DNA of 64,000 nt. Origin: Allacma fusca (Eukaryota; Arthropoda; Collembola; Symphypleona; Sminthuridae). Where the stretch lies: positions 47,443,415 through 47,507,414 of the forward strand of contig OX359249.1 in assembly GCA_947179485.1 (NCBI GenBank), written 5' to 3'. Shown in pieces: positions 11,042 to 41,039 of the stretch. The notes under the pieces were generated by a model. That model ran no database searches, was not told the DNA's origin, and was given only the letters and a program-made list of their open reading frames with translations. The translations under genes were made by a program, and so were the position numbers. The number at the start of each line of letters is the position of its first letter. Positions within the stretch are counted from its first letter, which is position 1.

Positions 11042-11271
11042 GCTGTTGGAGGAAGCTGTACCCCAAGAATTACTGAGGAAGAGCTACGGACGAAAATCGG
11101 CAACCTCCCCCTACTTATCTCCCTCAAATACTGTCACATTGGGAGACAGTCTTGAAGCCCTTCTAATCCCATTTCCCTCTAATTTTCACACCAATTTTGG
11201 ATTTCCAAACGTACAAGATTGCCAAAGGAACCAATAATCATTTCCACATGGGGTCGAACAAAGAAGTTCAG
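11042..11271 (+). other. ARID5 exon 1 (leader plus eight codons)
   Basis: The 3' border is well supported: CAG/GTAAAG at 11271/11272 is a near-consensus donor. The 5' border is only a guess, from the TATA-like motif at 11012. The leader has no ATG before 11248 and an in-frame TAA at 11164-11166, so 11248 is the first usable start in its frame. A second frame (11046-11237) is open but lacks an ATG and stops before the start codon, so I do not call it a protein. Confidence 0.5.
11248..11271 (+). CDS. ARID5: ARID5 coding exon 1 (start codon, 8 codons)
   Basis: ATG at 11248 opens eight codons, MGSNKEVQ, ending exactly at CAG/GTAAAG in phase 0. Exon 2 also begins in phase 0. The join reads MGSNKEVQ-LMGLLGRHGSY, which matches the layout of vertebrate ARID5B as I recall it: a start Met, about six variable residues, Gln, a hydrophobic pair, Gly, then HG-x-Y. 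In vertebrates too the first coding exon is very short. The alternative is that another first exon is used and this one is coincidental. The matching phase, conserved spacing, strong donor and ATG-free leader together make it the best candidate. It cannot be found by ORF length and a gene finder would probably miss it. Confidence 0.72.
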
Positions 11272-11929
11272 GTAAAGAGTTTATTTCATTTTTTTTTGTC
11301 ACTATCACAAATGTCATTACACATAGATTTCCATAGTTGTTGCAATCCCCCTTCTGTAATTTTTTTTCATTTGTTATTTCAGTAATGATAACATATGTCA
11401 ATATCACATGCGTTCTGTGGGATGATAATCTCTTTGTGGTATTTTTTTTAATCAGAACAGCTCCGTCACAAGTGGGTAGAGATAAAATAAGCTTGCAATA
11501 ATATTAATCTGTTGTAGTTTGCATGCAGGATGGATGGTCGAAACTGTGAGCGACTCAGGAGGAAATCATAATTTAAATATAAAGTTTTTTTTGTTTCTTC
11601 TATTGTACTGGATACGTACATTACATGCATATCTGCAGAAGGCTAGTGTGTTTGGTGGGCGGTGGTAGTCTATCTGGAAAGTGGATGGGACATTTAAAGG
11701 GAAAATTTGTTTTATATATTATATCTGGATAATTGAATGAAAACTTGAAATTGTTGAACATCTGCTTCTTCCTTCCCCCTTTTTGCCCTGTAATTTTTGG
11801 TCCCAGCCAAATGGGGTTTCATGTACAAAAAAATGCATACACTGAATTGAGTATACAACATGTCGGCCATTAAATTGATCATTTGATGACCATGACGTGT
11901 CATGCATTCCTTTTCTTTTTTGTTCATTG

Positions 11930-11930
<1 letters not shown>

Positions 11931-11967
<37 letters not shown>

Positions 11968-11970
11968 CTC
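11931..11970. repeat. (TC)n then (TATC)n microsatellite
   Basis: TC repeat passing into TATC units. Confidence 0.95.
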
Positions 11971-14900
11971 CGCCTGAAAAGTCATCATCATCATGTATAC
12001 AAGTATTTGAATTTATTTTACCTTTGTTTCACCATATATGCTCACAGTTGACGGGATTGATTTGAGATGTGTTATATATCTTGGCGGTGGTACAGTTCTC
12101 TGATTTTTTTTTCCCCCACAATGAACTTACACGCTACGCTATAGTTTAAATTGTCAAGGGAGCTTTTTATTGTGTTACTCTACAGAATTCCCTTAAACCT
12201 CTCATCATTAAACTATATTTATTATGATCATTATAGTTAAGGAGAGAGCCCGACGGGATGAAATATTATCTTGACCGTAGTGTATGGGAGATCTCTTCCA
12301 AGTTCAGATTATTTATTAATTGCGAAGTTTATTTTTCATGTCGTAACTGCGGTCACGTTGAAAAATATGTTTAAATTAAATAATGATTAAATGATTACAT
12401 GTTTATGTAATCGGTCGTACCATGTATGTATGTGCGCTAGGAGAAGGAATAATAAAATCAGTGATAATTGATTGTGTCACAGTGTCTCCAAAATTAGTAC
12501 ATGACAACGTGTGCAATATTCTTGTGAAACACTTGAGCTCTCTTGCACAGCCGCTATGTTTCCTGAGGTTAAATTAAAATAAGTAGAAATTATTTATTCG
12601 TGCCGTTGTAAAGATCAAATTAAATTCATTCATGCTCCTGTCAGCGACACTGTAGTCAGTGGATATCAGCGTATAAAAATCCAATATAAATTTAAGAAGT
12701 TCACAAATGGGGGATAATTACAGTGAAACATGTTTTTTTGTCATTATGATGAAAATGTATCCCAAACCAGATTTTTGGACTGTTAGTGCACATGAGTTTG
12801 TTCAGGACTGTAGTATAAAATAGGGAAGGATACAGTATGTTTTTTTTATTATTATAAATGAACCCCCCAACAATCCCTGTAAATTTTGGCGTACCTAGTA
12901 CAGTACTCCAAATCTCATGCATATTATAAAGTTGATTAACACATGTCCGTGCTATCAACTGATAAGGCTTTCCAGATATGCTACCCCTACTCTGATGTAT
13001 ATGGTTACTTTTAGTTGACTGTATAGTTTTAGTTTCTTCCTCGGATCTTCAAATGTGGCTTTTTATTCACAGGCACAACGTCCACATTCTCTCAGACCGT
13101 CTCAGAGTTGAGAGTATGACTCTGTTAAACAGTTGTTGAATGCATGCTGTTGTAACGCTGCAAGGGCTGCCAGTGTAGCAAGCAGGATTGAATATAAACT
13201 TGAATCAGCCAGTTTTCCTATGGGTTTTATATGCGTCGTTATTTATTAAGCACGTACGTAGTTGAAGCTACACACGTATCCCCGCACATCTGTTTAGATA
13301 GAACGGTTTAACTTTTTGAGCACTGATTGATACACCACTGCAGTATGGGATGAAAACAAATTGCCTCTGATTTCTCACTGTGAGCTATATCAGGGTTGTC
13401 CACCCATTGATTTTGTCATAAGTATAGACGGATGATACTTTTCTCATGTACGAATTTTTCCTCCATAAAGTTACATTTTTTATAAGTCTTGAACCATTTT
13501 ATGCCCGTAAATGTAATTAATCGGATTAAATCGATTACGACTTCAGAAGAAAATCTGCTGAGCAAAGTCTTTCATCAGCCTCAGCCCGTCCTAAGTGTAC
13601 TTTCATTCTCTGAATGAATGGCTGACCTGGATTTATTATGCTTGCCCAACAGTTTTTATTTTTTATAATTTTTTTTTAAAGTTTCATTTTAAAAATTTAA
13701 CCGGAGTTTCCCCAGCCATGAGTATATAGTGGCTGGCAATGAAATTAGAATATGAAGTTATGAAATTGATTTTTTTTTACAAAAAATTGTGTTTTAATAT
13801 TATATCGTCATATCTAGTAACATTGGATGTGGTGTCTCTAAAATGTTTTACTGGACTTGAAATTCAGTATTGTCTGTTGAGGATATATTTATTTTACATT
13901 TAACATTTCCATAGTCCAATGAGTCTTTGTGATCAATCCAAGACTGTACAATCCTGTGGGATTGGCTGGATTCAGCTAAAATGCCTTTTGCGAGTGCATT
14001 CGTGCTTTATCTACTTGTTCGCGGTTGAAGGTAGTAATTGTTAGTGGCGTATAGTACATAATATGATGACATGATCTGAAAACAAAAATGGTTTGAGAAT
14101 TGGATCCTCTGTCTATGTATATTATGTCTTGGTACAGGCTAAAAACATAAGTCGAGATAATGACTAGGTTTTATTTCAACTTCCACATGAATCTGAGCAA
14201 GGTTTTCCTTTGGAATATTTTCCCTTGGGTTGAGCATGGTCTCCTCAAATAGTTTGCTTGAGTTTACTTTATGTACCACTTACTTCCAATACTTGAGCCA
14301 CTACTTCTTGTACTGCCAGTCAAGTAAATTTTGTATGTAGTTATCACCAGACCAGGGCTCACCAATTTATGAGGAAAATAAAATAAAGTAAATATTTTTG
14401 AGGATTGTGAGGAAGGCGTACTTATATGTATATATATATCTACTTAATTATTCATATATTTATACTGTTGCTCCCAGTACGTGTACAGTATATACATATG
14501 TATCTACCTATAGGATGTGCACATGCACGGACGGACTAAGCTACTCTCTATTACCTTGTGTATGGCTTCCACACCATTCTATGTATGTAAGTATCTAGAG
14601 TCAGTGAGACTAATGGAAAACCAGAAAAGGTTATTTTATAGTACAATATTTATTAACTTGATTTTGCTAGAATTGTCCCTAATAGTTCTACAAATGAAGG
14701 GAAAAATCCTCAGTCTCAGCCCATTAGTGTTCCTTCTAGCCTGTGTTTTCTTGTAGCCCACCGACATTCCGCATGTAGAATTTGGCAAGTCATGACTTTT
14801 TTTCCCCACAATTGATGTATCCTTTTTAGGTTATTCGTGCCCTGGTAAGCCTTGTTTTTTTCCTCCCTATATACTCTCTGAACTGAAGAGATATGGGCAG

Positions 14901-17900
14901 TTGACAATCGTGTCTCATGTACTGTATGTATGTACGACGAGGCTTTGGAGTGGTGCTGCAGATATGATGAGCAGTGTCTGACGGGTGACATCTCCGTTAC
15001 TAACATTCGAAAAACTAATTTAAAAATCCTCTTATCTTATCACATTAAAGCTGCAGTTCAGTTCGTTCGATACAAGGAAATACAGACTAGATGAAATTAT
15101 TACTAGTGGAGGTTCAAGTCATGTAATCACATATAGGTATAATTATATATATATATATGGAATTATGATAAACGTTTACTATATAAATATATACGTTGTG
15201 TGTAATAACAACATCTAAGCATCTATCTGTACATACTCTGGAATTTGAGCAATTATTATGCAATCGTAATTTCTTATCCATCCTATTATTAGTAGTGCTC
15301 GGGCGATTATTATTTTGACAGCAATAGAGAAAATGTGAGGGAAGGATTATTGGGATGTACACATCTCTACACGGTTATTAATATTTAGTTACTGTGCCAT
15401 TATACATTTTTTGAATGTAAACCACATGCATTGTTATTTGAGAAATTCTCAATGGAATTCATAGATTTTGTTTTTTTTTAGCACTTGTACTTACTTACAT
15501 TTGCTTGAGGTTTCGTTTTGTGTCTTGCGCAAAAGAGGAATATCTAGTACTAGAGAGCCCCCCGTATGTGTACCTCTGCAGTATGTATGTATGTACGTAT
15601 ATAAAACTATTTTAATAAGTGGTGTGGTAGGATGTTAAACTGTATAAACTGACGCTCAGTTGAGAGTGTGTTAGTGGAAGGGAATTAAAAAGTCATAAAA
15701 AGTAAGAGGCAGTGTTAATAATGGCGAGGCTCATACCTGATGACAGTTGGAAACTTCTTTGGGCTGTAGTACTGTAGTAATCAATGGTGGCCTTCACGCC
15801 GCACTAAAATATCCACTATATAGAGAAATAAATTAATGACAGATGAATGATGGGAATCGTTAGAAAATCGAGGTAACGTAATGATTATTATTTATTGTCG
15901 TCCCCGGTATGCACGTCCCATGAAGTGCACTGCATTGTCTGACAACTCTCATTTTTTTTCCATTGCCTCTAAAGGTGTCTTAATATGTACACATCACACA
16001 TATGTATCCACCCTGATCTTCCCTTCCATTCCAAGCCCTACTGGTGCTATAGGGAATTTATTTTTTGTATTTATTTTCACACCAACCCATGAACTAGTAC
16101 ATATACTACAATAGTACAGGAAAATAAAGGAGTGGTTTTAGCCTCTTCTATACGCACACCTGACAACTGGTGAATTGAGCCACTTTTCCTCCTAATTGTA
16201 ATCCTTGTTGGCGGAGAGTGAGAGCAAAGTACAAGTTGACTGTTTTCAAGTCATATAATCACTTTTGGACCAAATTTTATTTCATATTTGAATGTCCATT
16301 CATTTTATGTGACTCACGTTATCCTATTTTTCCGAGCGCGTGTGTACATATACGTAGTAATTACATACATATACACACGAATGTTATGGTGTGTAAGTAA
16401 ATGTACAATTTTCCTCTATTGACAATATTCCCTAAGCAGCACAAAGGTGCAATAGTTTGGCTCAAATCTAATTTTAGGAGGGGTATGATAAATAATACCC
16501 CGTAAAACTTGAAGCGAAAACATGTGATTTAATTACAAGTTGTTTTCAAACATTTATTCCTTGAGGGAGTTAAGATTTTCTCAACAAGTATATTTCCTGT
16601 GAATAAATTCGTTAGCACTTATGTGTGTACATATGGGCTCGTAATTATAATCATGTACCTATAAGTAAGTACAGAGGAATAAATGTGTTTTTGAGAGGGT
16701 TTGTGCCCAACAATTGAGCTCGTTTTTTTAGTTCAGTCAATATAAAGGTAGTATATAGTTTTTTCTCAAGTACTCAGATACATTTATAAGCAAATGGGAT
16801 GGGATCTATGCATGTACATACTATACATATGTACGTATTATATCTTTCCATGCTTTTTGTGCCCGATGACCTGATTCCGTAGGAGATATTCTGCAGTCAG
16901 ATTTTAGTAACTTAATTTTTTGTCAACGTGAGGAGTTCTTTTGGCAAAGAAGTTCTTTCCTTTTTTTTTTTATTTAGTCTCATGAAAGATCAGTCTGTGG
17001 GAGAACTTTCATGAGGATTTTTCTCCTCCTCAGCCATGCACAGTAGTCCCTGCATGATTTGATTTTCAAGACCAACTGAGCCGAACAAGGGGGGGTTGGA
17101 TTTATGTAATTATGTATCTCTACAGTAGCTAGTGTGCGTGTACTTGGGAGGAAAGAGCAAGTATAAGAATATAAATTCCATCCACTCGAGACCATGACAG
17201 TAACAATAAACAATTAATGGCTCGCTAATTATCTAGTGCATCTAATGTATATATAATTATGTACATACGGATTTTGCAGAGTCATTAGTATTTTATACTA
17301 TTTCATTTTTCAAACTCAAGATATTATTTTGAAGTCTGAGCCAATCGGGAATTATTCAACTTCAATTAATATTCAAGTTGACAACAATGTTGGGATAATT
17401 TAAAATACAATAGTTATTTACATACTTATATACATATAACATATAAACAGATGCCTGAAGCTTTGTTTCCTTTGTGTTGCTTTGTTGTGTGGATATAGAG
17501 ATATAAGTATAATGTAATTATATGTATTTAATTGGAGGATACTCACATGCCCATAGAAAGCTTTTGTGGGCTAAATATAGAGACAAGTTATATTATTATT
17601 TGAGATGTTATCATTGAGGACTCAGGATATGAGGAGTCACTATTGAATAATGTTATGAGTATCTACTGCTCTGGCTACATCTATGTAGCTGAGAAAAATT
17701 AGCATAATATGCCTGTAATTATATATGTAGATACTTATCCATGTGTCGCTCCTACCACGATGTGCTCTATGGAGGGCTCTTGTAGTACCTCTATCTGAAG
17801 GTGTTTTTGAAAAATATGTTTAGACTCAACTCTATTATCAATCATTAGTATTTAAGTACCGTCAGACCTGATTTACGTCCTCACAATTACTCAGTTTTAC

Positions 17901-18914
17901 CATGTCCAATACTTTTGCTCAAGTGTGTACTTTGTGAAGTATCTCCTAATAACAGGAACGAGGCTCATGAGTATTATCAATCATTACCATTCCTAAATAT
18001 AAGGTAACTACACCAAATGTATGTAAGTATCTGAAATAATTCCAGGGCTTGGAATCAAGAATAATTATATTTTTATGACCCCTGATAAATAAATATACTC
18101 TACGTATATATACTTATATATTTTTTTTTTCTGGCTTATTACTCCTTGTACTTCAGAGAGGGGATTATGAGGGGAGAAACTTGAATATTTTGTATGGAAC
18201 GGTAAATTTGTTTTCTTGAAAGCATACATACATAGATACATAAATTCTTCAAGGGAATGCAGTTGATGTTAAAGTATCCTTGATTAATTTAATTTTGCGG
18301 TTCCGTTGTCATGTTGGGCATTCATGTGGGAGGCATCAGGAGTAGAATCATAAATACATAGATATACTTACGTACTCCGCACATACACAGTTCCCATTTA
18401 CATAACCACAAGGCAGGACGTGATGAGAGCATGTACAATATTATTCATACATGAAAAAAAAATTTAAGATAGGTACATATCATAGGTACACTCCGTGTGA
18501 TAAATTTATGTGAATATCTCGATCGGAACTTCGCTAATTTATACATGAACAGACTCGTTTTTTTTTTGTGTGCAGAAAATAATAATGGCACATAATAATA
18601 ATACACCTCCAAAAGTTCTGGTAATATTGATGAATGATGAAATAAATTGGAATTTTCTGTGTGAAGGAGTGACTCTGTAAAATAATTGTGTACGTTGACG
18701 GTGGATAGATTACAAGCGGAAACCTTACATATGTATGCAGGGATACATTTACTTGTTATTTGCTACGTTTAGCATCCTATTATCTTTAAAGGTGTAGTTA
18801 CTGAATTTGTTCTGTTTACGCACTATAGACACACACACACTGGCGTTTATAATGTAATGTAGGTGTATAATGTAGTCTACCTGTGCCAAGGGATTTTCCT
18901 GTTGTTACTAAACT

Positions 18915-18939
18915 TCAGGTCTCACATAATGAGACCTGA
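18915..18939. repeat. Perfect 10-bp inverted repeat with a 5-nt loop
   Basis: TCAGGTCTCA - CATAA - TGAGACCTGA forms a perfect stem. It is within intron 1. No further element around it was seen. Confidence 0.7.
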
Positions 18940-20230
18940 CTACATACATACATATATGTATGTGACCGTCATCAGTATCATGACCCGTTGTTATTGCACT
19001 CAGAGCTGACAGTATAGAAGAGCGCAGTGTGTATGGAAATAAGCTGAATTTGTTTTCTACATAGAAATGCCTCCACTCCGTTGCATTAATAATAATTGTA
19101 TATATCTATATATACACATATAGGAAAGGTATAGGTGAATATACAGGGATGACCCCGATTTAAGTCAAAACAATGGTATCTTGGAATATCATTCATTTTC
19201 AACTTTTATACATGCCTTCAGTTTGACCTCATTACGTGTTTATTGGTTTTTCTCACTTATTCAAGGAAAAAGCGTACAATAGGTTCATGGGGAGTTGAGT
19301 AAGTACAAGTCTCTATATCTAGGGTCTATGAATTTATGTATGTATATATGTATGTACGTATGGTGTATCCATAGGGAAGGTATCCACTGATAGGTCCACG
19401 GAGAGGAAACCATTTTTACATGTAGAAATGGCCTGTTTTCCCTACATGCTGCCGGGATTGCATTTTGTGATAGGATCGAAAGAAAATTTGAAATTGATTA
19501 GATTTTTTCCCCCAGATGTTACGACGAGGCCTGAGACACTCCGCGTCGTCTGTATAGGGAGTGCAAAGGAATATCTAATTACTTATACATAGAATAAAAA
19601 TATTGTATTTGTTGGATTATACGTTGTAAAAGGAAATTTACATTTATTTATTCTCTGTTGAGAGAAACCCCTTTGGAATGGAAAGGTCATTGCATGAGAC
19701 TGCTTTTTATTCACTTCACAATCTTCTTATTTGGCGCTAATGAAATAATGAGTCTAATGTAATGTCGCCTTGTTTTTTACCCTCTTCTACGTATGTACGT
19801 GTAGTAAGTAAGTATTATCACCTTTCAGGTCCGTATGTTTTATATGTGTGCGGATCTGTGGAGAAATTCCAATGTGTTTGCATATTTATGGTGTGGTGGT
19901 GGTTGGGATGGATGATAAAAATCCCTTGTACGAGCTGACAAACCCACAGTTTTATTGGTAATTTCATGATTGCTTCTGAATTGAAGCGGGCACATTTTTT
20001 CAAGCAATAAAAATAATAATAATGAGAGCTTGGGTTTGTCAGGTTGTCCAAGAAATGTTATCTCGGCCTCCCCGCAACCATATAAATTTTGCTGTCTGAA
20101 CATACTCACATAGGTATATATATATGCATGCCCAGTGTTCAGAATACAAGGAGGAACTTAGATGTGTATTGTATAGTTGGATGTTAAATACTATAACTGG
20201 CTGAATGTTTTGTAGGTGTATGTAGTTTTA

Positions 20231-20251
20231 TGTGTGTGTGTGTGTGTGTGT
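20231..20251. repeat. (TG)n microsatellite
   Basis: Short pure TG repeat. Confidence 0.93.
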
Positions 20252-20636
20252 TTGGAGAGAGAGATATCTACAATCTACACTTTTATTTGTAATAATAAGG
20301 AGAAACAAGAAATAACCCGACACTGCAGCAATGTGTATATGGGAATCATTATTTTATTATTATTACCAAAAATGGATATAATTTCTATCCTATAATATAT
20401 AAGGAACCTATTGATTTTCATGTGAAGCCGAAGCATGATTATCCTGTCAAGAGCAGGAATGTAGAGGAATTGCGAAATAGTAGATATGTAAGTACGTGGT
20501 TGAAATGGGATGCGAAACAGGATTTTTTTTCTCTCTTGCAAAATATTCTCGTACGGGGAGAGATGGGAAAATAGATTTGTAATCGCATTTTACATCTATG
20601 TAACTCTACACTCATTACTCAGTTATTTTTGTAAAA

Positions 20637-20704
20637 ATCCCCACTCCTGAGTATCTAATCTAGTAAACTTACTCACACTACAAGATTAGATTGAGTGTGG
20701 GGAT
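20637..20704. repeat. Imperfect 68-nt hairpin in intron 1
   Basis: ATCCCCACTC at the left and GAGTGTGGGGAT at the right pair with a 2-nt bulge, and TCTAATCT (20654-20661) pairs with AGATTAGA (20683-20690), leaving a loop of about 20 nt. The size is in the range of a pre-miRNA hairpin, but arm bulges and lack of expression data leave this open. Confidence 0.4.
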
Positions 20705-22060
20705 ACGTCCTGCCCTCAGTGTCTGTTAATTACTCTCATGTGTATGAACGCCTGTGTGTATGTGAAGGGAGGACGTCAATGATGTATTTGCTGACGGTGT
20801 GAAAGAGAATGAGGAAGGGAGATGATTTGTCTTATTCATACGGTTTCCCCCTTTGGTTCTCCAATCCTATTGTTACCCATGTACTATTCTGGCGTTTGTA
20901 GAAAAGTGGAGGATTCATTCATTTTGTAACTGTAATAATTATATGGGGCTTGTTCAGACCCGTCAAATACAGCAAGAAAAATTACAACATATGCGTTGAG
21001 TGTGTGTGGAGAATATGTATGTATCTAATAATATCTGATTTTGCTGTAGATACCTGCCTATCCGTATATTTTTCCCACATTGTACGTCCCTACATAATTT
21101 ATATTAGTTACAGGCTTTGGAAGGAACATGAAGTGATAATGACTTCACTGCAGCCAGTCTTACTGACAGGGATTTTGTTTGGCATGCTCAGCATCTAATT
21201 ATTCCTCTTGAAATTATCTATAATTTAAGTAAAAGTTGGAAATTCAAGGAAGGGGATTTAAAAATTATTGCCTTGATGAGACCCTACGTCAGAGCAAAGG
21301 TCTTCTCTCCCTTTTCCGGTATTTATGTGTCTTATGATGTTGAGTCATTATATGTATTGATGACAAGAAGACGTTTTGTTTGGCGCCTGATTATAAATAA
21401 TGTTGCTTCCTTCATGTTGAGGTCTCTATAAATTAATATTTATCTAATTTATTGTGCTTCAAGAATATACATATAGACAAGCTTTATTTATTTGGACGGC
21501 ATTAATATCTGGACGGGTCTATAAATCCCAGCCAGGTTGTGAAAACCAAGGGTATGAAATAAAAATTAAAAATTACTTATCATCTGGAAAAAGTAATAGT
21601 GGAGTTGTGGAGTAGGTCTCATTGTGACCTCTTGTCTCAGCCAGTCTCATCATGACAAATGCTGGGGTTATGGAGTCTCCTTGCTGCTACTACTACTACT
21701 ACTTCAATATACCATTCTGTGTATTTTTGTGGAAGAAGTGATATTTGTAGAAAAGACCCTTAGAAATGGTGGCTAAAATATACCTATCTGTGAGTCAGTC
21801 CAACTGATCCGTACTAGTTTGTACTTTCGGCACCACTACAGTGGATATACTATATTGCTATATAACATGAGCTGGTTTGGAATGGCCTGGGAACAGAAAA
21901 TATAGCGTCAAAAGACGATGGAACGAAAGCGTTACGTGAATTTTCCATGGTTTATGTTCCTTCACAGTATGTACGTCCATGTACTAGATATACTCAGACT
22001 TACGCACAGGGAAGGGGGGGAGAAAGACAGAAAAACAGTAACAATGCTGTATAATACGGT

Positions 22061-22061
<1 letters not shown>

Positions 22062-22113
<52 letters not shown>
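22062..22113. repeat. (GA)n microsatellite
   Basis: About 52 bases of GA; open frames over it on both strands are artefacts. Confidence 0.97.
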
Positions 22114-22115
<2 letters not shown>

Positions 22116-22864
22116 AAGAGAGGCTTTTCAGAGTGATCGTAAAGATAGGGAAGGCGTGTAATATGTACCTGCACAGTTACTCTTATGCAGGGCGTTCATG
22201 TAGATTTTTCAACCAATAAAGTATCCTGTCATTATTGACTAGCACACAATGCAAATAATAGCTCATGTACAGATACTCGTCTAAGTAGCTTAAAATTTTA
22301 GCCCATTATAACTGACGCAATGATTGCAAGTTTAATAATTAATAGGAAATTCTCCCCTTATAATTTCACTGTCATCACAGACCTATGTCTCAAGATATGC
22401 AGAACGTGAGGGAAAATGTACTTTTGTGAATCTATAAGTAGATTCTTATGTACATATGTACTTACTGTGAGTACATCCTGTGTAGATAGATATAAGTAAG
22501 TAATATGTAGATATATATAAGTATATATATATATATGTAGGACCAAGACATCAAGATAATACATGACTACATATATACTACTAACGTAGAGCTCCCCCAG
22601 CAAATACCCACTCAAATGTTTATTTCTTATGTATTCCTTATCCACCATCTATCTACTTAGGTATTCTTGGACCATTACTTACTTTAATTTTGACATTTTA
22701 ACTCGTTCCTTTCATTTGTCTCGCTTGCTCCGTCCCTCAGCCTGATGGGATTATCAATAGGGAAATGGTCTTTCCGAGTAGGAGAACTTTCCTAGAATAA
22801 TTCCGCAGAATATTAAATATGGGTAAACATAAGATGACTTATTAAACTTCTTTTATATCCATAC

Positions 22865-22894
22865 GTATGTATGTATGTATGTATATATGTATGT
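22865..22894. repeat. (GTAT)n microsatellite
   Basis: GTAT units with one TATA interruption. Confidence 0.9.
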
Positions 22895-23019
22895 CCCTGG
22901 CTATGGACATAAAAGTATCTACATTCTATTATATTCAATTGTCGACTGCAGGGACTCCTACTTGATTCCTTTTGAATCCAACTCTACACATTGTATGTAT
23001 GGTTCGGAACTCTCTGCCT

Positions 23020-23069
<50 letters not shown>
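23020..23069. repeat. (GT)n microsatellite
   Basis: About 50 bases of GT with one TAT interruption. Confidence 0.97.
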
Positions 23070-23075
<6 letters not shown>

Positions 23076-27773: not shown

Positions 27774-27774
27774 T

Positions 27775-28079: not shown

Positions 28080-28081
<2 letters not shown>

Positions 28082-28123
<42 letters not shown>

Positions 28124-28187
28124 GCCCTTTTTTTCTTTCTCTCTCTCCCTGTGTTCTATGTGTGTCTCGCTCTCTCTGTCTGTCTCT
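28082..28187. repeat. (CT)n-rich polypyrimidine tract
   Basis: About 105 bases of mostly CT with GT, CGC and TTT interruptions. This is the longest degenerate pyrimidine tract in intron 1. Confidence 0.95.
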
Positions 28188-29184
28188 AGCACTGCCTCTC
28201 ACTGTCTCACTAAAAGTGTGAGGAATATTATTATTACACACCACATGAAAATTGTTGTTGTAGGATTGCTGAATACAATGACGTTCTCGGGTTGATTGTT
28301 CGGAGCAAATATGTGCTAAAATGATGACAGTAGTGTTTTTTTATCTGTGTTATACTCCTGGTGCAATAAAAAGAACGAAATGCCTTTCCTGTACAGGCAC
28401 TTAATAGATATTATTTTCATATATAGAAGCACAAGAGTAATTTCATTTTGATTGTGTTTATTACTATTCAAGAGTAATGGGAGAACAATGGAAAATTTTA
28501 GTGTTCACGAATGTGAAAGTTATATGCATCTTAAAATTATTTGTATTTAGAAATATAATAATAATTGTTCCTATAATGCTGCGGCTCTTGGATTGAATTT
28601 AATGTGGAATATGCATTCCCAATAAGAATGATATGTCAGGAATAATGATATGTGTAATTATTTATTTGAAGGATGTGACGGAGAGTAGAGTTTCATATGA
28701 GTAGACTCAAATGTAAGGGATTGTAGGGAATAAATCCTTCTGTATTTTTACACTTATTTCGGGAAATATGTGGACCCATCTGGTATGGAGGGAATTTACA
28801 GTAATTGTAACCAGCTTGTACTGGATGGGAAGAATAATAATTATTGTTGATTGGATGAAAATGTGTGGCAGTATCGACCTGTTGTGGGTATGAGGTTGAG
28901 TTGTCATGGAATGTTGAGAATATTCCAAGGACTTGTCATGAATGACTTTAGCCATAGATTTCGTAGCTCCACAGATAATTAGACTTGACGTGCTCTTGAC
29001 GTTGATTTAATATTTTTCTCAGGTAATCGACTTGATCTGGCAAACTCTCGGCATATGTTTTGTCTTCCAATATTTACTTCAAGGGAATAAGTTTAGAAGT
29101 AATTATTTGCCTTCGACAGGAGTTGACTTAGTAGGGATGACTTTGGAAGCGAGTTGGGAAAAGGGCTAGGTCGTATGGAAGGAT

Positions 29185-29193
<9 letters not shown>

Positions 29194-29226
<33 letters not shown>
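29194..29226. repeat. (GA)n microsatellite
   Basis: GA repeat flanked by short GT and GAGT runs. Confidence 0.95.
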
Positions 29227-29229
<3 letters not shown>

Positions 29230-31132
29230 GTGAGAATATACATACACAATATAGTCTTTCGTAGATGTGAATGCCTGTTTGAGTGCCTGTTACAAATACA
29301 TATGTACGTGTGCGTGCTTATGTTTTGAGGGGACAAAGAGAAGGGAAATTTCTTGATAGGAGAAGAACTCAACGCAGAAGGTTAATGCGTAACAGTAGGC
29401 TTTGACTCTATGGCATTTCCCTGAGAAAATGCTGAAAATTCAATTTTTTCAAATATGATCAACCTACAAAATGAATTTCCATCTCACTCAGTTGGCTTTG
29501 ACGAATATTGAATCTACGGATTTGTGTATGTATACGAAATACGCCTGTCTATGTATGTACATGACTACTCTTTTTTCTGTGTATAGAATCACAAATTCTA
29601 TACTGAACTCCTTACAGAAAGATATCTATAGCTGAATGATTTTGAAAATCCTGAGCTTGATATTCATTATACTGTCTCTATATACATAATTTTGTATAAA
29701 TTCAAAAATTTGTGTACTTAAGTTACGGTGTGCTATTTCTACTGATACAGGGTTGCACATTGGGATATTGTAACGGAACTTGCGGAATAAATTGCATACA
29801 AGATGTTCCGAAGCACGTATTATAATGTATGCTTGTCAGGAATTACAGTCAAGCAATATTAGTACATATTTTTTTCCTACCGTTTACTCATTTTTTCTTC
29901 TTCTTATGTTTATGCATTAAATAGTCAGTAAAAATATGCTCCTTGGAGTAGTTCAACAGGAGCAGACACATCTGTTGGGTAGGGAACATATGGAATGGGG
30001 GAATTTGTCTCCACCTTGTTCGCACTATTCCCTTCTCCCTTACTAAGATTTTTTAATATATATACATATAATTATGTATACTAATTATACTAGGATGTAT
30101 CCATGCATCCATTATAGAAGAGTTGGCTCTTTAAAAAAAAAATATTTTATTACAAACAACAGCACAGGATAAAATTGTTGACACGTCTTACTGTAAATTT
30201 CCTTCCCCGTTTCACCTATGTATGTATGTATATGTATTTCCGTTACCCCGTAAAATTAAAAATATAACCAGGGCTTCTCTCCTTTTTCTGAAGCAAAGCC
30301 TCTGGATACGTTGGAATCCCATAGGTATTTGCAGAATTTTTCTTCTTAAAATGATTCATCTGTGATGACTTTTAGTCCGCATCGACCTAAAGTTCACAGA
30401 ATTAAGCCATTCGGACATTGAAGTACCTGTAAATTGAAACTTTTTATTATTTTACTCATGTCGGCTTAGATCTACCAAAGACTTGTATGAAATGTTTTTT
30501 TTTCTGAGATTTTTTAAAATAATTTATTTGGGTTTTTGATCTACCGCACTCTATACTGCGTGACTGGGAGTGAGGCGTAAACAAGTGAGTATCTAATCTT
30601 ATGATCTGTGACTCATCAGCATCACCTTGTAGTCACACTGACCAGTAATTACTTGAAGAGATGGTTTTAACTTCAAGATGAGGGATTTGTTTTTTTTTGT
30701 GTGTGAGTTTTTTTTTGTGTCTTACTATTATTTTTTGAAATGATTGTTTTTGCGATATCCCAGTCCCTGGAATTCGTTCTGCTACTAATTCGTAAATGTG
30801 AAGTTAATTGGTAGTTAGCTCACTCATTGTCAGTGAGTTCTCTACGGTCCCTAAGGTTGAGCATTAGTCAGGAGGAGAGAGGGGGTCACACATGTTAAGG
30901 ATGGTCCGGAAAAAAGGGTTAAGTGGAGATATTTAAAAAAGAGTGAAAAGACTCCCTACCTTCAACTCCGAGTGAATGAGGATGGGAGGAAAAGTAAATT
31001 GACCGAAACTCAACACGTCTTCTTCAGGTTTTAGTCCTGTTTGGCAACATTGTGATGGAATTCCAAGAAAATCCATAAATTACAGGATAGCTTTTACGAT
31101 TATTCCATCACATGTTTATAGTTATACATCCA

Positions 31133-31157
31133 CTCTCTCTCTCTCTCTCTCTCTCTC
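31133..31157. repeat. (CT)n microsatellite
   Basis: First of the crowded same-oriented CT tracts in the second half of intron 1. Confidence 0.95.
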
Positions 31158-31586
31158 CTGTATATGGGCAGATATTCATATGTACTGTCAGGATGCACTT
31201 ATCTGTATATGTATTGAGAAGGGACCATACTGTACATACTCTTGTGTCTATATAAACTCCAATGGAAATTCCATCTCATTGATTTATGCGTGGGAGACTG
31301 TTTTCAGGGCAAACTTTGGGTTTCTATATCCGGGCAAGCACTTTTATACATAAGGACATATCTCCACATTTATATTTACATACTCGGGATACGGACTAGG
31401 AACACTTTTGATGTGTACCATCATCATCTTCTTTTTCTACCCATCTAGCAATTTCTGCCCCTGGTTATGTTCCCCTGTATCTATATACTTACCTATTTAG
31501 AGAGCTATGCATATGAACATAAAATTTGAAAGGAAACTTTTGTTATATAAGTTTAGAGGAGTTCAAATTCGACACTGAGAGTATCT

Positions 31587-31587
<1 letters not shown>

Positions 31588-31643
<56 letters not shown>
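31588..31643. repeat. (CT)n microsatellite
   Basis: About 56 bases of pure CT. Confidence 0.97.
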
Positions 31644-31644
<1 letters not shown>

Positions 31645-32453
31645 ATCTCTATGTAAAGTGAACAGACGGAGGGAACCCTGTCGTTGGTAGAATTGCACTG
31701 CACAATCTAATTTTATGCAGGAAAAGTTGTTTCTTAACTTGGATTTTATTATTATGGTCTTCTATTTCTAGTTGATACTCTTAAAGATTTTAATAATCTT
31801 TTCAATAAAGATCCCAAGGAGTTTTATGACATTTGATAAAATCCATCTATTCAAAATTACTTGAGATTTAATACAAATGTGACAGCATCCGAGCCCTGAG
31901 CCTCATCTCAAATGAAATTTACATGAGCATAACATATATTCTCTCTATATATATAAGTACACAGATATCTATATTACTAACGTGTCATAATGAAATGTAT
32001 TGAAAGGACTGGCTCCATATGAAATTCTTAACTGTTAGTCCGTTTGAAGAATTTAATAGCATTTTCTCCCAATTGGTTGCTGTTGTCAGTTTGGAAGCTA
32101 TCAATTCCATTTGATTGTATGTTTATATTAATAATACATGGATGTATGTATGTATATATATATATAGATATCTATGCATGTATGTATGACTTAGGTCCTC
32201 TATAGATCCACTGGGTTTGAGTGATAGTTTTTGAATGATTTTGGAAATGTGTTTTGAATTCCTTGTAAATGGATAATAAAATGGTGGAAAGGGATCGAAT
32301 GGGTAAAAGGCTTCAAAAGTGTTTTATAGCTTACAATGATCTAATGATGTATCCTTATAAGGATTCCCTGGGATATGAAACTAGTTTATAACTCTTTGGT
32401 TCATGTTTAATTTCAATTTAAGGTCTCATATTGACAGGGTTGCTGCCAGCAAG

Positions 32454-32456
<3 letters not shown>

Positions 32457-32491
<35 letters not shown>
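32457..32491. repeat. (CT)n microsatellite
   Basis: Pure CT repeat, followed about 30 bases later by a C-rich pyrimidine run. Confidence 0.96.
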
Positions 32492-32495
<4 letters not shown>

Positions 32496-33331
32496 TAAAG
32501 GAATCTTCTCACTCTCTTCCCCCTCCCTCACCCCCCTCCCTGCTCTTCCTCAGCTCTTTTCTGTTGCGAATACACTTATATTTATATACCTATAAGTATA
32601 GCTACATAATTACATGTGGTCATCGTATTCAGGCAGGGGGAAATAAACACGAGGGGAATGTCGTTATGTAATTATTACCCCAACACACTGCATGTACACA
32701 TTTTTCATTACTCATTGTTGTTGATACATGTAACCATGTAAGTTGATATGTCTGATGCATTGTGGGTCTCTGTTCACTTATACATATATACTTACTATTG
32801 TATGTCCTTACCTATACTACACTATTTTATGTGTGTACAGGGGAAGGCTGGAAGTGCGGATATAATTTTTTTCATTTGGAAAAATAATGAATATGATATT
32901 ATATTATGCAGACAGAGGCCTATGGGTATCTGTGGGTATTAGCGGAATATGTACATAGTACCCTGCATACCTGAGTGGATGCTTGCTTGTTAGTATTATT
33001 ACTCATCCTTTTGTATGCCTGGGTTCCCGATGGGCGTGACTTGTTTAATCCTTCCACATTTAATACCCTTTTATCTGAACGTGCAGAGAGAAACGAGTTT
33101 TGTTTGTATTTTATTTCAAGACATCAACCACACTCTGAATGAGAATCTGTGCCAGGATCATTTCCCTCTCTCCTGTATTAAACACAACTGCCCTCGCATA
33201 TACAGATGCCTCTATGAGCTTACTATCCCAGGCGACTACTCCGAGTCATGGAAGGGAGGAAATAAATAATCATGCAATTATTCAAATCCGAAGGAATATT
33301 TTGTTTTTTTTTAATTGTCCCTCCCCTCGGC

Positions 33332-33373
<42 letters not shown>
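33332..33373. repeat. (CT)n microsatellite
   Basis: Pure CT repeat. Confidence 0.96.
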
Positions 33374-33376
<3 letters not shown>

Positions 33377-34050
33377 ACACACAGTTAGTTGTCTCATCCA
33401 AAAGTCCCTGCTCTTTCCATTGGGGGAATCTGTAATAATAATTATTACATAATTATTATTATTTCTCTCCATATGGAAAAAAGTTTTCGCAATATGACAA
33501 AAGTGTCCGCTTTTGTCCCTTTTGCCCGTTACTCAATCTGGAAATCATTTAGCGGATTCTCTACTCCCTACTCCAGTCAGAGTCAAGCCCTGGGGTTGAT
33601 GTCGTGTTTTCAAGTTCATGAGCAGGAACAATAGAACCATGTGTATGTACATATATGGTTCGTGTGTGTAGGCACTCTAATGAGTCTATGGTTGGACGGG
33701 GAGCTTAGGAGCTTGTAGGGATAGGTACATACATATCTATGTATGTACATACAAGCGTATGTAGGTGTAGGTAGCGTTATGGCTGAGAGTTGGATCTTGA
33801 TAAGGTTCTCTTGATAATTTCCACAATTTCCCTCATTACTTTCCCGTTTAATAGCTGATTACTGCCGGAGGAATTATATTTTAGATATGGTAGGTGAGCA
33901 TTTCTGCCCACTGCACGACGTTCCCATTTTTTTATGAAGATGCTTTTTTTGTCCAATACTCTTGTATGACTTGCAAGATAGGGAATGGGATGAATTTTGC
34001 CCATTAGGTACGTATATGTAAGATTAATAAAAATGATTATTGTTTTCTCT

Positions 34051-34054
34051 AGAG

Positions 34055-34086
<32 letters not shown>
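34051..34086. repeat. (GA)n microsatellite with CAGA units
   Basis: GA repeat with three ACAG units inside; the only GA-oriented tract within the CT cluster. Confidence 0.95.
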
Positions 34087-34952
34087 CAAAATTCCTGAGG
34101 GATTGAAACATTTTGTCACATGATAGACATGTACCCCAGTCATTGAGTGGGGAGATGGGTATTTGTAATGATGGAGGATGGGAATGAATCACTGGACAAA
34201 GTAGTGAGTATGATGAGTAAGAAAAAAATGATTCCAGTTAATTATAATGTCTAATGGTTTCAAGAATAATTATCCTGACTACTGAATGGAGTCAGTTTCG
34301 AGGGAGGACGGAAGATTTCCAAGAACCTCAAGAATATCTAATGTGCTCAAAGGACGTCGCACAATAATAATTTCCCCTCACTTTGGTCACGCTTTTTTAA
34401 ACCAGGATTTTACATTGGAATGGATTCAAGTTACTCATGTACTGAAGTATCTACATATGATTACATATTATGTGTGTTTGTGTGTGTGTGCATACATGAG
34501 ATGGTATTGAGATCCAAGGTTAAATTCTTGGACAAGAAACATCAGCAGAGACCTGTTTTTTGCTCAAAAATTGAGCCAAAGGAATAAAAAGTGGAGATGG
34601 AAGGAATGCATTGGAGTGGTGTGGTTTGTGCCAAGTGATTATTTGGAATTACTTAAGCTCCAAAGTGATCATTTCCTCTGGGGAGAATGTGCAGTATTTG
34701 GGTTGATTAATATTAATAGTGTGACTTGCTCCTCGCAACAATGACTATAGGTAGATACTACGTGTGGAGGGGCTTGGAGAAATATAGCATAGCTATAATT
34801 TTTATATAAGCATTAAAGGTCGTAATAAAAATTTAGCAAGTTAGTAAATTTTAGTATTTAAAGCAAACACAAATATATATCTGATATTTACATATCAAGG
34901 TATATGATACGATAGGGGATAAAACCTTGGTGGTTGGATTAAGTATAGTTGG

Positions 34953-34954
<2 letters not shown>

Positions 34955-34991
<37 letters not shown>
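34955..34991. repeat. (CT)n microsatellite
   Basis: Pure CT repeat. Confidence 0.96.
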
Positions 34992-34993
<2 letters not shown>

Positions 34994-35647
34994 TGTGAAA
35001 ATCTTTCATAAACCTCCATAAGTAAATATTGTATTATTACAATATGGAGGAGAGACTCTTTTGTGGAATATTGCCGTCGACATGTAACTCATGCTGTTCT
35101 CAAGCTGTTAAGTAGGAAAATGGAAAATCCTCATGGAAGGTTTAAATCCTTGAAGGCCATGGCATGTGCCCTCGAGTCATAATTTTTGCAAGCAATTTTT
35201 TTTATTTTCGTCCCCGTAGCGGCACGTATACTTTCAATTAGAAATAACAATTTGATTGTTAGAAGAATACGTTTTTTTTAATTGTATCACTCTACCATGG
35301 TGTAGTAGTAGTCAGGGATGGAGGCAGTTATTTAGCCAATTCATTGAGTATCATCCCTAATCATCATCCTTGTTTCAATCTCATCCTATATAATGTCTGA
35401 ATATCAGCCATATTGTATTTTTTCTATGGATGCTCAGGGGAATGCATATGTGCCAATTAATTACGTTTCGTGTGGCTGATGTGACAGGGAATTAAAAAAA
35501 TATATACGGCTGTAAATACAAGCAGTTAGGTACACCTTCAACTGGTTTCACAATAACCTGTCTCTGTGAAACCATTTTTGGAAGGCATGCGTAGAGATTC
35601 ACTTGTATTAACTCACTTCTAATAATTATTAATAACTTTTATTTCTT

Positions 35648-35666
35648 TCTCTCTCTCTCTCTCTCT
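35648..35666. repeat. (CT)n microsatellite
   Basis: Short CT repeat leading into a T run. Confidence 0.93.
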
Positions 35667-35820
35667 TTTTTTTGTTTGTTTGAAGATTCCTCTTGAAGAT
35701 TCTTCACATATTTTTTTTTCTGTCAACATCAAAATGTAGATATGCGTGTACAAAACTCCCTGTACTGTACTGTATGCCAGTGCCTGTTCCGCTGCTTGTA
35801 TTTAACTTCCATAATTTGTT

Positions 35821-35872
35821 ACGTACATACATACATACGTACGTACGTACATACATATGCATATGTACGTGC
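35821..35872. repeat. (ACAT/ACGT)n palindromic microsatellite
   Basis: TACATACATACGTACGTACG-type units running into ATGCATATGTACGT. It is nearly self-complementary and could extrude as a hairpin. Confidence 0.9.
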
Positions 35873-35956
35873 ATTAACTGGTGTTAGCAGATAGGCGGAA
35901 TAGCTGGCACTCACTGATAAAAATGCAACTCTATTGTAATCATGTTTAAAAGTATG

Positions 35957-35979
35957 TCTCTCTCTCTCTCTCTCTCTCT
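35957..35979. repeat. (CT)n microsatellite
   Basis: Short CT repeat. Confidence 0.94.
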
Positions 35980-36315
35980 GTAAGAATGTACTTGTACTTT
36001 ACTATGCTATAAACTTCTATTCTTCTTCTTTTTGAGAACACTGCCCTGTGCAAGGTTTTGTATTATATGATGCGTGTGTAAGGATCTATGTATGTACATT
36101 ATCATATATGTACTGTACATGTTAATGTATATTCTTGATAAACCAAAGCTTCATCCAAGCTAAGATATTTTTTTCCTTTAAATTTAAATCCAGTTTGACT
36201 TCAAAGAAAGTCATAACAAAATGGAGTGAAATTGTTCTTTGAATCATCTTGAAACAGTTTCCTTCCAACCACCATTTTAGGTATTTATAATGTTATGATG
36301 ATAGAAAATGTCTTA

Positions 36316-36346
36316 TCTCTCTCTCTCTCTCTCTCTCTCTCCCTCT
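36316..36346. repeat. (CT)n microsatellite
   Basis: CT repeat about 75 bases upstream of a GT repeat. Confidence 0.95.
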
Positions 36347-36416
36347 GTAAACTTTTGAATATTTCTGCCCTTCTCTTTGACGCTTTACTTTGTGAGGATG
36401 TTTGTATGTTTTTGAT

Positions 36417-36418
<2 letters not shown>

Positions 36419-36452
<34 letters not shown>
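36419..36452. repeat. (GT)n microsatellite
   Basis: Pure GT repeat. Confidence 0.96.
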
Positions 36453-36453
<1 letters not shown>

Positions 36454-37546
36454 ATGTGTATGAGTGTCTGTGTTTGCATGGAAATTCATGAGAATTGCAA
36501 TTATTGTGGTTATAAATAGGGACAGGAAATATTTGAGGTTATCTTGACTTGTGCTGACAATGTTGCCAAATCCCAGTGCCCCAAAGGACTCAAAGCATGC
36601 TCTTCCTGTGAAGACAAGTCGCAAATTAATTAGGATTCTTTTAGCACATATGTGATGTGAATGAGTGAGTTGAGTGAGTGAGTTAGGGAGAGAGAGAGAA
36701 TAGAGGAAAAATGTTATTCCCCCAATTGTCCTAAAGATTTTGATACCTTGAGAGAACAAGTTGTGGCAGTAAGAAAACCATTACCGCTCTTGACGAATCC
36801 AATTTTCGATTTCACTTTGCAGCTGATAATGATTTATTCTCCTCTCAATAACGACGTAAGAGATTGGGAATGGTAGATCCTTATTTTTTTTAATATGTAA
36901 AAATGTTCTGGCATGCTGCGAATACTAAATGGCGTATTAAAAACAGGAATGCGGAAAAATTGGGAAATTGTTCGCGATTTTCCTCCACCCTTCCAAATTC
37001 TGCTTCGACCTCTTCAAGTAGAACTGATTTTTTTTTTTTAATTTGACTCCATCCTATAATCCATGATAATTATTATTGATCAAATTACAAATCGCAGTCA
37101 GGGTAAAATAAAAGCTTGAGATTATCAAGGTGGATATTTCTCAAGCTTATTATGTATCTACATACAGGCTTACCTCATTGCTGTGTATTATTTGAAAATA
37201 AAAATGAAATAATTGTGTGTGATGGAATGTAGGACTGTAATTTGGACACTCTCAGGTTCCCAATGTAATGTAATTTATGATGTTGTCTCTATCTACATAT
37301 ATGTAGGTATATTCTATATGATTCCTCACTAATTTCTATGGAATAGTCGTGAGAAAAATTGTCGCATTTTGTAAGTTCCTTGAAAATGGTTGAAGTTATT
37401 GTGTACTCCTCTTAAAACTAAGGGTAGTGAAGAAGTTAGGACCTATAGTGGCTGATCAAATAAGTTGATAAAGATAATGCGACTATACAGAAAGATTTAA
37501 TGATTGTGTAACTTTATGCTAGGGGCAATAATAATTATTATTAGAA

Positions 37547-37601
37547 GGACTGGAGAGAGATGAGGGACGGACTGGAAAGAGTAATGGAGAGAGATGAGGG
37601 A
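37547..37601 (+). repeat. Imperfect tandem duplication
   Basis: A 21-base unit beginning GGACTGG and ending GATGAGGGA (37547-37567) recurs at 37569-37601 with about 12 extra bases inserted after GGACTGG. Confidence 0.65.
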
Positions 37602-37751
37602 GAAAACTTCAGTGGGTTTTATTGTTATTAAAACTGCCATTTCCAGTTTCCCAATTTTCCATGCTTATAATGCATATGTGTATTTTATACATATTAAAAT
37701 ATATATATAGTCAAGATCTAGCCTACAGGCATACCTTCTTTGCTCTGTAAA

Positions 37752-37753
<2 letters not shown>

Positions 37754-37812
<59 letters not shown>
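37754..37812. repeat. (CT)n microsatellite
   Basis: About 58 bases of pure CT, the longest perfect CT tract in the window; last of the crowded set. Confidence 0.97.
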
Positions 37813-37816
<4 letters not shown>

Positions 37817-38553
37817 GCTCTCTCACAGTATACCTATGCATTTGTTTGGTTTTGAAACTAATACTTATAAATGGTTGACTGACTACGAGCTTTAGGGGTT
37901 CGTTCATAAATTACCTTTTGATCCTCCTTTTTTTTGTGAGGAGAAGCATTTTTTCCTCGACTAGGTCTTCCATAGGAATCCCTGTAACTCTGTATATGTA
38001 TATAGATAGATATTGTATGTGTATAGTACTGGGGAATGGGATTTTACATTGTGGGGGAAGGGGAAGCGAAAAGTTATTTGTCCTCTACTACTTTTACTCA
38101 TATTCAGCCTTGATTGTGTTTTCAAATGTCACGATTTTGCTACTGCATGCTTCCTCCATGTTTAGTACTCCTCAAATCTGAGTCTTAAGTATTTTTTTTA
38201 TATCCAGGAAAATTCCTAACTATTCTATGCTAAATTATTTTTTTCCCCTTGAAAGGAGCGACACTCACTTCAATAACAGAGTATATTAATAGATAATAAT
38301 AAGTATGTATCTTTATATGTATTTTTAATAAATGCGTATCAAGAAATCAATAGTGAAGAACGTAATTTAAGATGACTAATTGTAAGTATCAATTTCCCTT
38401 AAGCACTAATAATTATCATTGTAAGTCCCTCTTACAGTCTTTTTAATGATGTATTTTTTCTAAAAAAAATTATATGGGCATGTGTTAGTCATTCACCAAT
38501 CAATTTCCAAATGAAATCATTTAAATCGTAGAGGAACGTAATCCTACTACCTA

Positions 38554-38580
38554 GTATGTATGTATGTATGTATGTATATG
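38554..38580. repeat. (GTAT)n microsatellite
   Basis: GTAT units. Confidence 0.92.
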
Positions 38581-40145
38581 CATGTATTTTTCCCTGGCCT
38601 ACCCTTCAGCTTGAGACAGTGAAAATGCTCTGTAAATGCTATAATTATTATTACTTTTGATAGGGAAGGACAATTTATGGTTTGTGTAACTTTAAACTCT
38701 ACATTGTATGTAATTATATATGTGCATATAGGATTATATCTGTATATAGGAAATTGCAGATCCCATATTATATGTGATAATAAAGGAAAATGTGTAATGG
38801 CAATAATAACCCTAACATTGGAACCATGATGTCCAATCTGGGGAAAAACTCCAGGGCTTCCCTACCTACCCCTACGACTCTTATATACATATATGCACAT
38901 GGACTTGTATAGAGATGGAAATATTACGTTAAAAAGTTTCCCTCAAATTCTTACCACCGACCTTTCAGCTCTGAACATTTGAGTCCCCGACCCTCCCGGC
39001 TGGAGGCATGGATTGAAACTTTAGGGAAAAATGTTTTTTTTTTCAACTTACAGGGACGGGATATTTTTTTTTTGCAGATCACGTCCACGTCCTGTGTAAA
39101 TTTTTAACAGGGCATGGTTTGTTTATTTCTGGGTATTCTCTTTGCATATATACTGTGGCTACACTTGAGCATGTTGACTATGAGATGTGTGAGTGTTATA
39201 GCGAGATATTTATCTCTGAGTACAGTGCATTGTGTGGATCGAACTAAGAGCTACATAAGTATCTATTCCTATATATGCGGAAAGTTATGATGGGATAGTT
39301 TACTCTTTTTTCTTTTTTTTTTTGAGGAGGGTTCTATTCTCTGGCAGCAGTCTTTGAGTCCGGCTCTCTCATGCAATACGATACGATGATTTAGCTAGGA
39401 AGCACGTTGTAGATTTTATTTATTTACTTCCATTTTGGTTTTCTCGTCGATTTCAAGGGAAATTGAAGAACTGTTTTGATAGAATTATTAGAATTTGTAA
39501 CTGTATGTATGTGTGACGGGTTTGGTATGGAAGTCAAGGAACTGTTGCTACTTCCATGGTATTGCGATATAATTTTGGTTGAAAGGGTGTGAGATGTAAA
39601 GTTTGAATGGATTCTTCTGTTCTCAGGAGAGAATATAACGGAAGGAGCTAATTTCCTCATGGCTGGCCAGATTATGGGAAGTAAAGCTTGAAAATTTAAA
39701 GTTTTACTAAAGTAATTTAATACTGTTGTGGAAAAGGCTGGAGATGAGAAGAGTGAAGTAGAGCTTTTATTCAAATGAAAACTCTTACCCTTCTGTTCCT
39801 GGCGGAATTATTGATGACACAGATGGGGGGAGGAGGGAAGGAGAGGAGAAGGATGACTTTCATTCTCTTTCATTCCATTTTATTTCCTCTAACGACCATC
39901 TTCCCTCTCGTAATTCTCGTCTCGAAAAATATATACCTATATATATATATTTAAAGGTTGCAATTTTAATTCGACACAGAGCTTGCTCCTGTGACTTATG
40001 AAGATGCCTCTGGGCATATCTATAATAATTATTTATACAAGGTGTGCACTGTTGTGCAGGACGGGTCATAATTAAAAAATGTAAGGAAAGTTGTGGAGAT
40101 AAAAATTCGAAAGTATTTTCTAAGAACGTTACGATATATAGACTA

Positions 40146-40166
40146 AATAATAATAATAATAATAAT
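40146..40166. repeat. (AAT)n microsatellite
   Basis: Seven AAT units; the Asn run in an overlapping frame is an artefact. Confidence 0.93.
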
Positions 40167-41039
40167 GGGCATTATTTTGTGCACTTATGTACCTCCAGTT
40201 TCTACTTACGACTGGTTACGGTTATTGCAGTATCTCTTTGGATTATCTACTGCTCCTCCAATGCAATGCGTCATTCTCATTTTTGTATGTGTATCTATTT
40301 AGCATGGCCTATGTAGATGTTATAATTACATACATAGATACATATAATTACATATGTAGATAGTAGTACTCTGTCCATGAGGTTGTGTAAATGGAAAAAC
40401 CAAGCTCGGGAATGCATTAAATAGAAAGGAGTGGAATGAGTTGACAATTTTGTCGCCTCCGTTTTTCCGACTGATTTCCCCCTTCCTTGAATGTATCTCC
40501 CAAGTACAAAGGTACATGATATATCTTTGATCTAAATGGCTCCTCACACTTGGGAGGATCTTTGGAAGCCGTGTGAACTACTCCAGCTGCACTTCCTACA
40601 AAACCCAATGTAATTAATTCAATACAGGAAAAATCGATTGTTTTCTGTTTACATTCAATTCAATTTAAGGATTTCATTGGAGGAGGGACACACTTCTACT
40701 CAAAATCCCTTTTGATAAAAATCCATCGGAGTCATAGAGTGGAATTTGGAGCATTTAAAATAATTGCGTCAAAATGTAGTAATTACAGAGTAATTACGTG
40801 AAGCTACCCCCTTACTGCCTCTCTGATATTGTCAAGTCTCTGCCTTTAAATTCTAATAATTATTCTAAGAAGAGAAAAGAAAGAATTTCAGGAGGATATT
40901 TGCTCTTATATGTAATTCCCTCTGTCTGTTATATTGTCAGGTTTCTACCTCATATCTTTCGTAATAATATTATATACATACATAGGTTTGATCTTTTGGT
41001 ATATCTACTTATATTTTGATTCTTTTTATTAAATTACAG

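Follow-up and report, generated by a model that had tools for sequence, protein, structure and literature searches.

Vertebrate ARID5B is the closest described relative of the gene considered here. Its N-terminus is predicted to adopt a BAH fold, and conservation of this region is reported in a subset of vertebrate species (PMC9077328, in the excerpted text). Mouse ARID5B binds HDAC1 and HDAC2 via the BAH domain, and a short isoform of ARID5B is made without it (both in the available part of PMC13284713). An invertebrate ARID5B gene is not reported in the partial texts of the matches listed from our literature searches. The present locus, from the collembolan Allacma fusca, looks like such a gene: it would keep the HDAC-binding front part of ARID5B, seemingly without the ARID domain.

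The window analysed is a stretch of 64,000 nucleotides (47443415-47507414 of its contig, C5). Positions are counted from its first letter, and the same count is continued beyond its end as extended numbering. The sequence was read 120 kb further downstream, within a total region of 264 kb that contains zero N; genome-wide searches cover the 393-Mb assembly of 91 contigs. The content of the window is best explained if a + strand protein-coding gene, 84 kb long, has its 5′ end there; for this gene we propose the following features:

10863..11247, + strand: ATG-to-ATG gap, ATG-free inside, the longest on this strand; the putative 5′ UTR takes up its 3′ portion from about 11040 on
11012..11026, + strand: TATA-like stretch (TATATAA at 11012, TATATAT at 11020), possible core promoter with a presumed start near 11040
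11248..11271, + strand: coding part of exon 1, MGSNKEVQ, donor CAG/GTAAAG, phase 0
11272..41039, + strand: intron 1, 29,768 nt long, showing an excess of T and G, the bias beginning at about 11,408
41040..41276, + strand: exon 2, 79 residues, front of an ARID5B-type BAH region, acceptor TTACAG, donor GAG/GTAAGA
41277..64000, + strand: first part of intron 2, which continues to 88916, beyond the window
88917-89121 (extended), + strand: exon 3, from homology, E = 0.009, weak singly
from 91220 (extended), + strand: exon 4, from homology, E = 4.2e-7 in a whole-genome search
from 91797 (extended), + strand: exon 5, from homology, E = 3.3, weak singly
up to the stop at 94727 (extended), + strand: exons 6-8, from open frames and splice phases only

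Exons 3-8 span 88917-94727 in extended numbering, that is C5:47532331-47538141. The assembled model has eight exons and seven introns, all GT-AG and with fitting phases, and reads as a single frame of 920 residues up to its stop.

The human sequence used in the comparisons is presumed to be that of ARID5B. Its residues 318-424 match PDB 1ig6, and its numbering agrees with the published one at C53, L75, F77, D81 and E100 (PMC9077328) and at N87, S88, D89 and E92 (PMC13284713), as far as the excerpts of both papers name them.

Exon 2 follows a TTACAG that ends at 41039; it encodes LMGLLGRHGSY...KLYFLPENTPEGRSQHHGE, ending in HGE, and is followed by GTAAGA, whose donor score ranks 3rd among the 4147 GTs of the window. 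It has a single match across the genome. Against residues 14-92 of the presumed human ARID5B it is 48% identical (38 of 80 aligned positions, E = 2e-12). The resemblance continues downstream: residues 14-277 of the model align with human residues 14-296 at 34.7% identity and E = 4e-40, in a two-sequence comparison with no composition correction, where the last part of the alignment, beyond APKLKGKPKK, is of low complexity. Like the long isoform of vertebrate ARID5B (isoform 1), the predicted protein starts with Met and a short stretch ending in Gln, after which comes the BAH region. The two share HG-x-Y, AE-QLLW, KLYFLPE-TP-GR and HGE/DEVIA in the BAH region, and VL-Y--Y-R-R--LKR and AP-LKG-P-K in the extension that follows it. 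The model shows no detectable similarity to the tail of the human protein, the next-best stretch scoring E = 0.94. The first ~250-280 residues of the modelled protein are homologous to the vertebrate N-terminal BAH region and its extension.

Contrary to BAH proteins of other families, neither this protein nor residues 1-425 of the presumed human one is recognised by PF01426; the matches to this profile listed for the genome number at least eight and lie all away from the gene. Exons 1-2 yielded no useful hit among PDB sequences or in Pfam, and AlphaFold2 returned a poor model for exon 2 alone (pLDDT 53.7). No relative of exon 2 was seen in the viral contigs scanned, and neither Rfam (at gathering thresholds) nor ARAGORN (with the bacterial code) found a match within the window.

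The 920-residue model matches zero Pfam families up to E = 10. In the same search, residues 1-425 of the presumed human ARID5B give the ARID domain at 3.9e-22, at about residues 321-406. Where vertebrate ARID5B proceeds to ARID, the modelled protein continues after APKLKGKPKKGRRRR... with a tail that matches no Pfam family. No convincing ARID match was found in 124 kb around this part of the gene (60001 to 184000 in extended numbering; best E = 0.16).

In the whole assembly, PF01388 gives ten matches at seven loci, the search scoring the best candidates. They are of the ARID1, ARID2, ARID3, ARID4, JARID2 and KDM5 types, the last with two loci; none of the seven is of the ARID5 type. Six of the loci were compared with solved structures and the seventh (C1, 14.85 Mb) was judged by eye. 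The best structural relatives of the six are ARID4; JARID2; ARID1, with ARID3 close behind; ARID3/dead ringer; KDM5/lid; and ARID2, the last assignment being weak (32 residues, E = 0.0039). The ARID3- and KDM5-type fragments score higher against Drosophila dead ringer and lid than against other ARID3 or KDM5 chains. The KDM5-type loci, at C5:42.60 Mb and C1:14.85 Mb, are nearly identical to each other, and the other five loci fall one per class. With residues 93-425 of the presumed human ARID5B as query, the ARID4-type locus scores best in an ARID region, with 30% identity; the ARID1-type locus has a short stretch at 45%, with E = 0.32.

The gene therefore appears to encode an ARID5B-type BAH/HDAC-binding module without an ARID DNA-binding domain. 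Since no ARID domain is found in the modelled protein, we regard it as a homologue of the ARID5B N-terminus and not as a complete ARID5B. The original prediction had linked the gene to ARID5B on the basis of its exon 2: this match holds and extends through exons 3-5, but the identity does not reach as far as the whole of ARID5B. Judged by the defining ARID domain, the modelled protein falls outside the ARID family, and we would class it as a BAH protein of ARID5B type that lacks ARID.

It is unlikely that the gene is instead a complete ARID5B, whose ARID exons were missed in an assembly gap, in a distant exon or in an alternative transcript; this would concern the lack of ARID and not exon 1. 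Introns of this gene can run very long, the genome searches score best candidates only and the reading stops at 184 kb in extended numbering, while exons 6-8 are placed by signals only. Nevertheless, the modelled frame runs on through these exons to its stop, across the three short introns that follow exon 5 (216, 344 and 296 nt). The 264 kb read are free of N as well as of any convincing ARID match in the 124 kb searched, and among the ten PF01388 matches not one is of the ARID5 type, though six other types are present.

The 5′ end of the gene was predicted from sequence signals alone. On the + strand, positions 11248-11271 read directly as ATG GGG TCG AAC AAA GAA GTT CAG, followed by GTAAAG. 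Joined in phase 0 through the junction 11271/41040, they give MGSNKEVQ-LMGLLGRHGSY. The sequences and coordinates that the original prediction had given for both exons proved exact when re-read from the DNA, as did the phase of the join. Its further claim, that this eight-codon exon lies 29.8 kb 5′ of exon 2 as the first coding exon, is also the best reading: the leader, the strand bias, the donor and a single genome match, which the prediction had not cited, back it. We put at about 85% the probability that 11248-11271 is a genuine first coding exon spliced to exon 2 at 41040 in the presumed transcript. The N-terminus proposed here is one that gene finders could easily truncate.

An in-phase ATG, a usable donor and a leader without upstream ATG are found here in one place. 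The frame of exon 1 is shut upstream by a TAA at 11164, so the ATG at 11248 is the sole ATG start of that frame; its context is middling, with C at −3 and G at +4. The donor at 11271 is the only usable one nearby: with a score of 4.39, it is the one GT out of ten in 11026-11300 to exceed −4, and it ranks 14th of the 2535 GTs of 1..41039. The sequence at this donor, CAGGTAAAG, has its sole occurrence on the + strand of the window there. Across the genome, 10863-11290 is matched only once, hence no repeat is detected at that place. As for promoter signals, the + strand of the window holds 173 TATAWAW matches, which makes the TATA-like stretch at 11012 weak alone, and no CpG island is seen near 11 kb by CpG content.

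The gap that ends at the 11248 ATG measures 385 nt and is the longest of the 1559 ATG-to-ATG gaps on the + strand of the window; the − strand has zero gaps as long. In the 264-kb region, gaps of at least 385 nt number five out of 5836, that at 11248 being the shortest of the five.

Phase-0 joins of an ATG to a good donor are common in themselves, and the rare part is the leader context. Loosely defined, such candidates number 32 within 1..41039. Under a strict definition (donor score of at least 4.38 and at most 12 codons), the real 41 kb contain two candidates vs a mean of 4.0 per simulated 41-kb sequence. In 1000 order-4 Markov simulations, a strict candidate with a leader of the 385-nt type never occurred, and a Gln-ending candidate whose leader measured 217 nt or more occurred in two, in a leader test selected post hoc with the sequence already seen.

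The original prediction had also put forward a vertebrate-like layout of the start. An M...N...Q resemblance to the presumed human start is indeed there; it is weak alone, however, as three of the 32 loose candidates end in Gln, exon 1 included. The sequence for a short, Gln-ending first coding exon in phase 0 is present here; the corresponding exon boundary in vertebrates is presumed.

A separate line of evidence comes from strand composition. We took together the excess of T over A and of G over C along the + strand, with microsatellites masked, and located the change point. In the window it falls at 11,408 with a statistic of 79.8, a value reached in none of 2000 block shuffles at each block size of 200, 500, 1000 and 2000 (the closest shuffled statistic, with 2000-nt blocks, is 77.8). 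Without masking, the change point lies at 11,265; with the leader and exon 1 zeroed, it remains at 11,408. Taken separately, T/A changes at 10,283 and G/C at 14,884. An excess of T+G is seen in six of the first eleven 1-kb windows vs 51 of the remaining 53.

When 80 kb are added upstream and the region is cut off at 94,861, the change point is again 11,408 (interval 10,189-12,052). Upstream, T+G minus A+C nets 0.002 and −0.015; intron 1 has 0.071 and intron 2 has 0.081. The 91 kb before the step carry no net strand bias, while single 4-kb windows there show bias in either direction. On its 3′ side the biased block has no sharp limit (85,167; 82,283-109,923), and the stop at 94727 fits this. 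A bias of equal sign recurs farther along, as at 136-160 kb in extended numbering, where it presumably belongs to other genes.

Strand bias is described as a sign of transcription in human and other vertebrates, with a direction that varies by lineage (PMC10030826; PMC2927911, in the excerpts available). Here intron 2 sits between two homology-backed exons and so calibrates the sign of the bias for this very gene, as an internal control. A T/G bias of the transcription type sets in at ~11.4 kb, with about equal strength in introns 1 and 2, a line of evidence separate from the leader. The ATG-free leader, the single donor and the step in strand bias suggest that signs read off the DNA alone can locate a first exon at a distance of 30 kb.

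Exon 1 could be non-coding or different, with translation from the in-frame ATG at 41043 in exon 2 (MGLLGRHGSY...), reached for example via the acceptor at 40941. This codon has a G at +4 and the stretch from 40941 to 41043 is ATG-free; on a simple matrix, the acceptor at 40941, 99 nt upstream, outscores that at 41040 by 3.5 vs 0.2. The acceptor of exon 7 scores −3.2, and the other six in the model lie at 0.0-0.83. Splicing exon 1 to 40941 would place stops after MGSNKEVQVSTSYLS, between exon 1 and exon 2; moreover, 40941-41039 is T-rich and has a TGA at 40989 in the frame of exon 2. A start at 41043 would also turn into coincidence an in-phase ATG that ends the longest ATG-free stretch, eight codons 5′ of the only usable donor. 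We consider such a start improbable as the sole one, although the same ATG could yield a slightly shorter form through leaky scanning. An additional small exon inside the 29.8-kb intron, with a start near 11 kb and 11271 not directly joined to 41040, is very improbable: the intron is long and short exons may escape a reading of sequence alone, but 11271 and 41040 already share a phase and reproduce the M...Q/xxG layout presumed for the vertebrate protein.

If 11248-11271 is the first coding exon, the gene may be expressed as follows. Transcription would start near 11.04 kb. Exon 1, made of a ~200-nt ATG-free leader and eight codons, would be spliced across 29.8 kb to exon 2, and exon 2 to the six exons outside the window, in a transcript that would encode the 920-residue protein. 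The eight residues of exon 1 would complete its N-terminus. The BAH region could then dock HDAC1/2 and, because the protein has no ARID of its own, a partner would have to bring it to chromatin.

The BAH region as a whole is conserved. For this docking, the conservation of the contact residues named in the accessible text of PMC13284713 differs between two places, by our count on the alignment. In the helix of residues 181-193, named as an HDAC1 contact, seven of 13 residues are kept; the putative HDAC-surface helix within modelled residues 1-280 reads YERYIRLRTVLKR. In contrast to the ARID5B BAH domain itself, three of the four HDAC1 contacts named there (N87, S88 and D89) differ, and one, E92, is kept. 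We give about even odds to a role of the protein as HDAC-corepressor adaptor, with its BAH region docking HDAC1/2. If it is truly devoid of ARID, an HDAC-docking module would exist here naturally separate from DNA binding. A homologue in an invertebrate would make the N-terminal module older than the vertebrate subset in which its conservation is reported, and its function could be tested apart from DNA binding.

ARID5A, of the same vertebrate family, presumably has the ARID domain but no BAH region. Together with the short isoform of ARID5B, it is the mirror image of the present gene: ARID without BAH, as opposed to BAH without ARID. Tentatively, the corepressor module of ARID5B may once have been a separate, ARID-free HDAC adaptor that persists in at least some invertebrates; vertebrate ARID5B, whose short isoform has no BAH, would then be a fusion of it with an ARID5A-like gene. 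The alternative that this lineage lost ARID and kept the BAH module has equal standing.

The window is rich in long GA/CT and CA/TG microsatellites, which occur in many places. Downstream of it, open frames at 106731-108094 (extended numbering) probably mark the next gene; they look like parts of what is tentatively an RMND5-type gene. Further on, a 978-codon open frame at 116904-119837 (extended) looks like that of a protein derived from a transposase, presumably of the hAT type.
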